Positions 9,057 to 17,788 of a stretch of 38,514 bases of DNA are shown piece after piece. Positions within the stretch are counted from its first letter, which is position 1; each line of letters opens with the position of its first letter. The translations under genes and the position numbers were made by a program. This DNA is from an uncultured Candidatus Berkelbacteria bacterium (GTDB taxonomy: Bacteria; Patescibacteriota; UBA1384; UBA12157): NCBI GenBank assembly GCA_903877885.1, contig CAIRFN010000001.1:1-38514 (forward strand), in the 5' to 3' direction. A model generated the notes under the pieces. The model worked only from the letters and a program-made list of their open reading frames with translations. It was not told where the DNA came from and did no database searches.

Positions 9057-9195
9057 ATACTCTGAACGGCTTTTTAGTCTACTGGCTTGAGGTATAAAAG
9101 CCCCTCGCCAGCGATGGCTTACGCCACCCATACCTCTTTCGAGATACGACCGTTCAGAGTGCTCTGACGAGGAGCTTAATACTCTGAACGGCTTT
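9057..9195. repeat. 17-bp direct repeat with inverted partner between copies
   Basis: ATACTCTGAACGGCTTT occurs exactly at 9057-9073 and 9179-9195. The reverse complement of its core, CCGTTCAGAGT, lies at 9150-9160. The arrangement lets either copy pair with the central one. It could also serve as binding sites for the HTH protein encoded immediately beside it (9258-9470). Confidence 0.8.
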
Positions 9196-9257
9196 CTTGC
9201 CATACCTTATATTTCTATAAGGGTTAGGCAATCAATTGTGTGAACGAAATATGCTAT

Positions 9258-15233: not shown

Positions 15234-15332
15234 ATGGGTTCGTTTGGCAAAAAATGTAGTAAAATGTAAAGTTCATTACAGGTTAAGTTTAAACAATCTT
15301 TAATGATTTCGGCGGTATTTAGGAAATTTATT

Positions 15333-15962
15333 ATGTCTAAGACAATAGCAGAACAATCTCACGCATTAAGTATATTCTGGCTTCAAAAAAATGGTTATTT
15401 AGACCAAAATTATTGCCACTATCAAGGTAGTATATGGTGGAATCGTGGCGAAACTAACCGTGAAAGCAGTATAGGGTTTGAGATTATGATAGATAATGCA
15501 GAGAAAGCAGACGAAAAAAACTATATAGGGTTGAATTACACTCATACAAGTCGAGAAAGTGGAGAAAAAGAAAATTTGGATTATAAAATTAAACTCGTAA
15601 CAACACTTTGTAATTATGGTGGTAAAAGATACTGGTTTATTTGTCCCTTATCAAAAAACGGTCAATATTGCGGAAGGCGTGTCGGGGTACTTTTCCTCAT
15701 AGGTAAATACTATGGTTGTCGGCACTGCGGAGAAATAGCTTATAATTCCCAAATGCAAACCGAAAGATATAAAGGTTTTGTATCTATCCCAGATATAGAG
15801 AAAGCTGAAAAAGAAGTTAAGCGATATTACTATAATGGGAAACCGACGAGAAAATATAAAAAAGTTATCGAATTAAATAATAAATTTGAAAATGGTTTTA
15901 TCAAATCGATGGCGAAGTTAGATAAAAGGTTTTCAAAATTTACAAATAATGGTATTATATAA
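15333..15962 (+). CDS. Zinc-ribbon protein next to the recombinase
   Basis: A 209-residue protein, starting MSKTIAEQSHALSIFWLQKN. I take the ATG at 15333, which has AGGA 8 nt upstream, over the one at 15303, which has none. The centre has a predicted ribbon, ICPLSKNGQYCGRRVGVLFL, followed by YYGCRHCGEIAYNSQ: cysteines in pairs around a beta hairpin, as in a family seen in mobile elements and CPR genomes whose function is not known. The first 100 residues look beta-rich with many aromatics; the end is helical and basic. It is the last gene before the recombinase leader, and could be a DNA-binding accessory factor. Confidence 0.7.
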   Translation: MSKTIAEQSHALSIFWLQKNGYLDQNYCHYQGSIWWNRGETNRESSIGFEIMIDNAEKADEKNYIGLNYTHTSRESGEKENLDYKIKLVTTLCNYGGKRYWFICPLSKNGQYCGRRVGVLFLIGKYYGCRHCGEIAYNSQMQTERYKGFVSIPDIEKAEKEVKRYYYNGKPTRKYKKVIELNNKFENGFIKSMAKLDKRFSKFTNNGII

Positions 15963-15964
15963 AT

Positions 15965-16084
15965 GTTCACCCACCGTTTTTAAATCCGAAGAGATTTTTG
16001 TTTACCGACCTTAATGGGGCAGTCTGCCAGTAAACTACTCTTCGGAGCAAGCGAGTTGGGTGAACCAGACTGTCCCTTAAAGGT
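15965..16084 (+). promoter_or_regulatory. Pseudoknot-like RNA controlling the recombinase start
   Basis: Two sets of inverted repeats interlock. Stem 1: 15965-15973 with 16057-16065 (9 of 9), 15985-15993 with 16038-16046 (9 of 9) and 16000-16005 with 16030-16035 (6 of 6). Stem 2: 16008-16026 with 16066-16084 (17 of 19 positions pair, one of them G-U). The 5' arm of stem 2 lies in the loop of stem 1 and its 3' arm lies outside, the layout of an H-type pseudoknot. The 3' arm includes AAAGG (16079-16083), the ribosome site of the ATG at 16089. The fold would therefore hide the recombinase start. What opens it is unknown. It is not a terminator, since no T-run follows. Confidence 0.65.
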
Positions 16085-16088
16085 ATAT

Positions 16089-17729
16089 ATGAAACAAGAA
16101 AATCAAAAATTAAGATACTTTCTTTACGCCAGAAAATCGTCGGAAAGCGAAGACCGACAGGTTCAATCTATTGATGACCAAATCAATCGCTTGAAAGAAC
16201 TGGCGAAAGATTTGAATTTAGATATTAAAAAGATTTATACAGAGGCAAAATCGGCTAAGAAACCGAATAATCGTCCGTTATTTGATGAAATGATTGGCCG
16301 AATCGAAAAAAATGAAGCTGATGGTGTCTTATGCTGGCAAATAAACCGTTTATCTCGAAACCCGATAGATAGCGGTAGATTAAGCTGGCTACTACAACAA
16401 GGAACTCTTAAGTCAATTCAAACCATAGACAGGCAATATCTCCCTGATGATAATGTCATTCTTTTTAATGTTGAAAGCGGTACGGCTAATCAGTTCATTA
16501 TCGACTTAAGAAAAAATGTTAAAAGAGGACAGCACTCTAAACTTGAAAAAGGTTGGCTTCCTTGTTTTTGTCCGCAAGGATATTTGAATAGCAAAATAAA
16601 AGATAAAGGTGAAAACGATATTACTTCAGACCCCGAAAGATTCCCATTGATAAGAAAAATGTGGGATTTAATGCTGACGGGTAACTATACACCTCCCCAG
16701 ATTTTAAAAATCGCCAATAAAGACTGGGGTTACAGAACCAGAAAATTAAGAAGAAGTGGCGGCAATCCCTTATCGAGAAGCGGTATTTATAAACTATTTA
16801 CCAATATTTTCTATACAGGCAATATCCTATACTCTGGAGTTCAATATGAGGGCAAACACGAAAAAATGGTCTCATTGGAAGAATACGACAGAGTTCAGTT
16901 TCTTCTTGGTAGAAAAGGAAAACCAAGACCAAAAACGCATAAATTTGCTTTTACTGGCTTTATCCGTTGTGGCGAGTGTGGTTGTCTTGTTACGGCCGAA
17001 ACTAAATCAAAATTGATTCAATGCACTGGAGAACTTAAGGAATATACTTATTATCATTGCACACATAAGAAAACGGTTGCTAAATGCAAACAGAAATCTA
17101 TGAAAGACGATAATTTGGAGCTTAAAGCAGAAAAGAGAATAGAAGAGCTTACGATATTGCCAGAATTTTTAGACTGGGCATTAGAAGATTTAAATCTGAA
17201 AAATGATACTGAAATTGAGGATAGAACAAAGATATATGAATCACAGCATAAAGCTATCGTTCAATCTCAAAAAGAATTGGATGAGCTTACTAAAATGAGA
17301 TACCGACAACTAATTGATGACGAAACCTTTATAAAGGAACAAAACACTCTGAAATCACAAGTTAGCCAATTAAAAAGCAGATTAAGGGAAACTGAAGCAA
17401 GAGCTGAGAGATGGCTTGAACTTACTCAAAAAACTTTTAACTTCGCTACATACGCTCGCATAGCTTTTATAAACGGTGGGTTAGAAACGAAGAAAGAAAT
17501 TCTAATGGGATTAGGTAAATTCCTTACAATTAAGGATGGAGAACTAAATGTTGAGACAAACAAATGGCTCGTTCCAATCAAAAATGGCTATCCCGCTTTA
17601 GAAGCAGAATACAGAAGGTTAGAACCGACTTTACAAAATGCTACAACAGGTATAAATAACGCAAAAAGCGAGGCATTAACCTCACTTCGTGCACATTGGC
17701 GGAGAGGGAGAGATTCGAACTCTCGGTAA
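16089..17729 (+). CDS. Large serine recombinase (element integrase)
   Basis: A 546-residue serine integrase. I start it at 16089 (AAAGG 5 nt upstream); the frame extends to 16014, but that part lies in a structured RNA. The catalytic domain (1-150) has FLYARKSSESEDRQVQS with the nucleophile S17, and the arginine motif INRLSRNP. The recombinase domain follows, then a zinc ribbon (FIRCGECGCLVTAE with later HCTHKK and AKC) and a coiled coil (about 380-455). The enzyme would insert and, with a directionality factor, excise the element. Its last 11 codons are read from the complementary strand of tRNA-Ser(GCT), placing an attachment junction at or near this tRNA. The HTH protein at 9258-9470 is a candidate partner. 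Confidence 0.92.
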   Translation: MKQENQKLRYFLYARKSSESEDRQVQSIDDQINRLKELAKDLNLDIKKIYTEAKSAKKPNNRPLFDEMIGRIEKNEADGVLCWQINRLSRNPIDSGRLSWLLQQGTLKSIQTIDRQYLPDDNVILFNVESGTANQFIIDLRKNVKRGQHSKLEKGWLPCFCPQGYLNSKIKDKGENDITSDPERFPLIRKMWDLMLTGNYTPPQILKIANKDWGYRTRKLRRSGGNPLSRSGIYKLFTNIFYTGNILYSGVQYEGKHEKMVSLEEYDRVQFLLGRKGKPRPKTHKFAFTGFIRCGECGCLVTAETKSKLIQCTGELKEYTYYHCTHKKTVAKCKQKSMKDDNLELKAEKRIEELTILPEFLDWALEDLNLKNDTEIEDRTKIYESQHKAIVQSQKELDELTKMRYRQLIDDETFIKEQNTLKSQVSQLKSRLRETEARAERWLELTQKTFNFATYARIAFINGGLETKKEILMGLGKFLTIKDGELNVETNKWLVPIKNGYPALEAEYRRLEPTLQNATTGINNAKSEALTSLRAHWRRGRDSNSR

Positions 17730-17788
17730 GGGTTACCCCCTACAGCGGTTTAGCAAACCACCGCACTAGGCCACTATGCGACCTCTCC
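17697..17788 (-). tRNA. tRNA-Ser(GCT)
   Basis: Acceptor arm GGAGAGG/CCTCTCC, discriminator G and encoded CCA at 17697-17699. The anticodon stem GTGGT/ACCGC carries loop TTGCTAA, anticodon GCT. A long variable arm (type II) and a T-loop TTCGAAT are present. The 3' end overlaps the 3' end of the recombinase gene on the opposite strand, so this tRNA marks the right boundary of the element. Confidence 0.95.

Follow-up and report, generated by a model that had tools for sequence, protein, structure and literature searches.

The stretch of DNA analyzed here, the 38,514-nucleotide window, comes from an uncultured Candidatus Berkelbacteria bacterium and carries on its forward strand a gene for a large serine recombinase (16089-17729; Resolvase, Recombinase, and zinc-ribbon domains, PF00239, PF07508, PF13408, and phrog_95) that is led by an RNA element at 15965-16084. 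The genome carrying the window measures 1.0 Mb, and its named close relatives are mostly Patescibacteria of the candidate phyla radiation (CPR); the starts of homologous recombinases align with the ATG at 16089. Judged by comparative sequence analysis, the element is a real, evolutionarily conserved pseudoknot RNA.

The pseudoknot is of the H type: helices of 9, 9, and 6 bp are nested one inside the other, and a further helix joins the hairpin loop to the 3' flank. The 5' arm of P1, at the 5' end of the RNA (15965-15973), pairs with 16057-16065 at 9/9 positions and encloses P3 (15985-15993 with 16038-16046, 9/9) and P4 (16000-16005 with 16031-16036, 6/6). The P4 loop holds the 5' arm of the pseudoknot helix (16008-16026), whose 3' arm (CAGACTGTCCCTTAAAGGT, 16066-16084) adjoins the 3' arm of P1 without a linker; this helix pairs at 17/19 positions, with one G.U and the mismatches A16013-A16079 and T16015-T16077. 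Within its 3' arm lie the position of the U-tract, from 16077, and the AAAGG of the recombinase start (16079-16083), which is found 5 nt 5' of the ATG and pairs with ACCUU at 16008-16012. A preliminary description of this DNA had proposed these arms, their interlocking as an H-type pseudoknot, and the placement of AAAGG in the last arm, and all of this holds. The topology score, which combines the hairpin with the pairing between its loop and the adjacent 3' sequence, is 55 for the element, compared with a maximum of 53 in 4,000 dinucleotide shuffles, and ranks first among 318 tiles of the window. The RNA folding energy gives a z of -3.9, equaled by 0 of 200 shuffles.

Many relatives of the recombinase have a homologous upstream layout despite little sequence identity. 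TATAAT is followed, after six bases, by a hairpin arm (often GTTGACCCA), a second and a third helix, a loop with GGGCGGTTCTG, and the return strands, and then immediately by CAGAACCGTCC, which is complementary to the loop, a run of T's, and the ATG. With the topology detector, 46 loci score at least 50, each above all 20 of its own shuffles, and in most homologues the gap between P1 and the knot arm is 0 nt. Fifty diverged leaders were aligned with an iterated covariance model that contained only P1, P3, and P4 and left the knot helix unpaired; MAFFT and RNAalifold alone misaligned P3 and preferred the knot over the hairpin. Pairing in this alignment, knot included, reaches 92.9% of cells compared with 70.4% in shuffled alignments, and it falls to 37-48% when partners are slid by 1-3 columns. 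Two-sided change is seen at 37 of 41 pairs and in 469 cells, compared with 124 in shuffles, a level that 0 of 500 shuffles reach, so that covariation across related elements, the check named in the preliminary description, reveals strong compensatory change rather than none. The individual helices are paired in 99.1% (P1), 89.1% (P3), 89.2% (P4), and 93.4% (pseudoknot) of cells, with two-sided change at 9/9, 9/9, 8/8, and 11/15 pairs, respectively, and because the pseudoknot helix was absent from the model that made the alignment, it is not a fitting artifact. Beyond its GC core, the knot continues via A/U pairs to pairs 5-8 at levels above shuffles, and at the third pair of the core a G.U is retained in 38 of the 50 sequences, which fits an RNA better than a DNA structure. 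Sequence drifts widely among the homologues and pairing is retained; the only unpaired segments with strong conservation are U-rich stretches and GCAAG.

Some relatives lie at the edges of this alignment. Weak matches of a long subtype (L176, L196-L199, L201, and L204 in our numbering of loci) align less well, and several recombinases are preceded by pseudoknots of this topology that are shorter or doubled and fall outside the model (L021, L028, L029, L068, L070, L080, L107, and L109). No Rfam 15 family scored above its gathering cutoff, and at E values up to 10 there were only chance matches below the cutoff. Since sequence drifts, a DNA similarity search of 380 CPR genomes was uninformative, and a search for the exact arm patterns in viral contigs returned unrelated matches or none.

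The structure stands in a fixed relation to a promoter. In the window, the promoter scan places a -35 element, TTTTCA, at 15930-15935 and an extended -10 element, TG-G-TATTAT, up to 15958 on the forward strand (TG at 15950-15951, hexamer at 15953-15958). With 80 loci anchored at the first base of P1 and no gaps allowed, the frequencies at -12 to -7 are T.90, A.91, T.76, A.81, A.80, and T.93, together with TG at -15/-14 and TT at -35/-34, as in a sigma-70 promoter in fixed register. The RNA thus most likely begins at the first base of P1, and for the window both the register and the scan predict +1 at 15965, not downstream of 16010, the outcome that would have spoken against the preliminary description. 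The open reading frame (ORF) often starts only 4-12 nt past the knot, which leaves too little space for another promoter. The promoter is strong, and none besides it can be placed upstream of the ORF, so the recombinase mRNA would have to pass through the leader RNA.

A P1 that begins exactly at +1 might also be expected if the 5'-terminal stem and a ring-like knot stabilized the mRNA by blocking 5'-to-3' decay, as exoribonuclease-resistant RNAs do. In the resistant RNAs of plant viruses, as in the leader, a hairpin uses its apical loop to pair with the bases that follow it immediately on the 3' side; the leader differs from them in standing at the 5' end of bacterial mRNAs and in having a longer knot helix that is followed by a U-tract. 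Stabilization would explain neither this U-tract nor the choice of mobile and defense genes described below, and no Rfam match supports it, so we consider this explanation very unlikely.

Nested inverted repeats adjoining an integrase gene could alternatively be a DNA element, such as an attachment site, an operator, or a cruciform. The arms, however, are in register with +1, the knot core retains its G.U in most copies, and integration seems to take place at the opposite end of the gene, which leaves this idea with hardly any credence. In most loci scanned (17697-17729 in the window, and L014-L103), a tRNA gene in convergent orientation overlaps the 3' end of the recombinase gene or lies close to it; in the window it is a tRNA-Ser(GCT) on the reverse strand (17697-17788). 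The end of the ORF appears to derive from the tRNA (in the window, GRDSNSR). The tRNA genes found at these ends are those for His, Gln, Trp, Ser, Asn, Lys, Phe, Gly, and Pro. These serine recombinases thus appear to use tRNA genes as integration sites; a search for a second copy of the tRNA end, which would mark the distal boundary of the element, found none. T-box-like or guide pairing of the leader with the integration-site tRNA was considered as well and rejected, as the complementarity to the own tRNA (20.1) is no greater than that to others (20.5).

What follows the knot bears on how the leader might act. Directly after the GC core, U occupies positions 1-4 in 88, 92, 91, and 69% of copies, followed by a purine and G, a segment that is U-rich again to about position 10, and an A-rich stretch until the start codon. 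At positions 1-3, T is better conserved (88-92%) than its A partners, and the sequence is T-rich again at positions 8-10, where pairing is at chance level. A U-tract, defined as 3 or more U among the 4 nt that follow the core, is present in 68 of 78 copies and is retained regardless of whether the ORF is near or far. The family therefore shows the GC-rich helix and subsequent U-tract of an intrinsic attenuator, a feature that is weak in the window, where the U-tract is only UU (CCCUUAAAGG). Nested folds show local hairpins inside the knot arms, at most candidates for a fold that competes with the knot.

It is also conceivable, as the preliminary description proposed, that the leader is a purely translational switch, in which the knot buries the ribosome-binding site or start region until a ligand or protein frees it. 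The pairing of AAAGG with ACCUU in the window copy fits such a switch, as do the covariation of pairs past the U-tract and the distance from knot to start codon, which is 12 nt or less in about 35 of 81 loci. That distance is, however, 13-45 nt in about 35 loci and larger in 11, a Shine-Dalgarno motif precedes the start codon in only 12 of 78 copies, and the conserved U-tract would be left unexplained; as a general account, we regard it as possible but unlikely. The hidden ribosome site of the preliminary description therefore stands for the window copy and fails as a shared function, with distances from about 0 to more than 45 nt and no Shine-Dalgarno motif held in the closing helix across the family. 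Because its U-tract is short and AAAGG lies in the arm, translational occlusion is the more plausible readout for the window copy itself.

With structure, promoter and +1, conservation, gene association, and U-tract all computed, we favor, with about even confidence, a cis-acting 5' leader that attenuates expression of the gene behind it, mainly through termination coupled to the pseudoknot and sometimes also through covering of the start site. The element lies on the same strand as and directly upstream of a class of genes and shows compensatory change, as a cis-regulatory leader would, and it is presumably cotranscribed with them. Because a stable knot and a U-tract lie where the recombinase mRNA must pass, the leader is most simply understood as a brake, acting through early termination, obstruction of ribosomes, or both. 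Transcription would start at the base of P1, and P1, P3, and P4 would fold cotranscriptionally into one long hairpin, the apical loop of which could then pair with the bases emerging directly after P1 and so close the knot. In most relatives the closed knot would end in a GC core and U4-U8, resembling an intrinsic terminator with a pseudoknot stem, and RNA polymerase may often stop at the U-tract and keep the recombinase level low. Where the ORF starts within about 12 nt, as in the window, the knot helix would also mask the region where ribosomes bind. Some factor that opens the knot, a trigger whose existence we infer along with termination and repression, would raise recombinase expression. 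Several observations weigh against this attenuating leader: termination in the window would be inefficient given the weak U-tract; pairing covaries at positions 5-8, past the first U's, as would be expected if the knot persisted in the completed mRNA; a pair of copies (L201 and L214) face a reverse transcriptase gene and lack any gene on which they could act in cis; and neither an alternative antiterminator fold nor a ligand has been identified.

Scans with the RNA model only, of 380 and 384 CPR genomes with few in common, yielded 62 distinct loci, with the E values of the purpose-built covariance models to be taken as rough. The next gene encodes a serine recombinase at 45 of them, including relatives at 23-30% identity, and at 5 more a recombinase is reached after an intervening gene; recombinase homologues as such occur in about half of the 380 genomes of the phylum. 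An N6/N4, type III-like DNA methyltransferase gene (Mod) follows at 4 loci, in L212 with a ResIII gene behind it, and cas12a follows at another 4 (TIGR04330, E values of 1e-129 to 1e-215); 2 copies face a reverse transcriptase gene without a sense gene, and 2 have other neighbors. The leader is thus not specific to integrases. A search for cas12a found the gene in 17 of 384 genomes of the class, 5 of which have the standard topology upstream (4 of these are also found by the model), while a sixth locus, L234, has a minimal version of it. An RNA brake on the CRISPR nuclease Cas12a in several CPR genomes is therefore possible (copies upstream of cas12a are L215-L218 / L224, L226, L228, L247, and L248). 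In L201 (=L221) and L214, the copy is of the long subtype and stands tail to tail with the reverse transcriptase gene, which in L201 is preceded by methyltransferase-like fragments.

A tree of 160 recombinases (FastTree), the sampling of which is biased in that some members were found through the RNA, has about 26 changes of RNA state, 18 of them forced by well-supported branches, and the RNA is absent from relatives that are 71-75% identical. This is as expected of a dispensable control module, and the leader RNA is such a movable, dispensable module. Among genomes of other phyla with recombinase relatives, 0 of 14 have the RNA. In two knotless recombinase relatives (L018 and L053), the corresponding position holds a TACAAT that resembles a promoter and a long hairpin that resembles a terminator, which points to a functional replacement.

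Its own promoter, a terminator-like end, and two copies without a sense gene would also suit a stand-alone noncoding RNA that acts in trans, either with the recombinase, Cas12a, or methyltransferase or on another mRNA, as would start-codon regions that repeat the 5' arm of P1 and with which the 3' arm could pair. That close recombinase relatives lack the RNA means, however, that it is no obligate cofactor; nearly all of its bases are paired, leaving no guide, and it has no special complementarity to the integration-site tRNA. We consider a trans-acting RNA distinctly unlikely. The repeats themselves occur in three Mod loci (L196, L197, and L212), where the start codon lies in a small hairpin with a copy of the P1 5' arm (GTTCACC) in its loop, and at the start codons of a recombinase (L157), a small ORF (L055), and cas12a (L234). 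At least 8 identical bases between P1 arm and start region are found at 4 loci, where 0.3 are expected and 200 permutations give at most 3, the three Mod loci being related to each other. Pairing of the P1 3' arm with the start-codon region at these loci could be a further hint of regulation, which we treat as a lead; as a general mechanism, start regions that mimic P1 were rejected, since only a handful of loci have them.

Two further features of the window deserve mention. A protein of 219 amino acids that matches no Pfam family and has zinc-ribbon-like cysteines is encoded at 15303-15962 and recurs directly 5' of the RNA and recombinase in several genomes, and a LOOT RNA (RF03000, 101.7 bits) lies on the reverse strand at 9113-9230, 5' of a GrpE-like gene and an HSP70 gene.

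Like the preQ1, SAM-II, and fluoride riboswitches and attenuators, the leader is a 5' pseudoknot directly upstream of an ORF, for which a readout by termination or ribosome access is possible. It differs from them in having no evident conserved ligand pocket, in a sequence that drifts while pairing is kept, in a knot helix of 11-19 bp, in the lack of an Rfam match, and in preceding genes for mobile and defense enzymes rather than metabolism. RNA structure reportedly limits an element's own DNA enzyme in the IncI repZ pseudoknot and IS10 RNA-IN as well, unlike which the leader has no identified antisense RNA, pairs the loop of a long hairpin with the directly adjoining 3' sequence, and occurs in CPR bacteria. 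The bridge RNA of IS110 and the omega RNA of IscB/TnpB are likewise structured RNAs encoded beside an enzyme that recombines or cuts DNA; in contrast to them, the leader has no guide segment or match to the integration-site tRNA, and the recombinases often lack it.

In the open-access literature, we found no paper linking such a leader to serine recombinases or to CPR cas12a, and with no match in Rfam 15 it looks like an undescribed family of structured RNAs of CPR bacteria. To our knowledge, it is the first RNA leader of large serine recombinases. We further speculate, as a possible but unlikely idea, that CPR mobile and defense operons for serine integrases, Cas12a, and type III methyltransferases share a dedicated RNA switch that senses a single signal, for instance the arrival of foreign DNA or the state of the host, and turns on these DNA-acting enzymes together by melting the pseudoknot terminator.

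Because the same module stands before cas12a and restriction-modification genes, our findings suggest that DNA-cutting and DNA-rearranging enzymes may be subject to a shared brake at the RNA level. A natural brake on serine integrases and Cas12a, both of them in wide use as tools, is of practical interest, and a structure this short leads to clear predictions that can be tested cheaply with reporters. The CPR bacteria are a barely accessible part of bacterial life, to which this RNA family adds.
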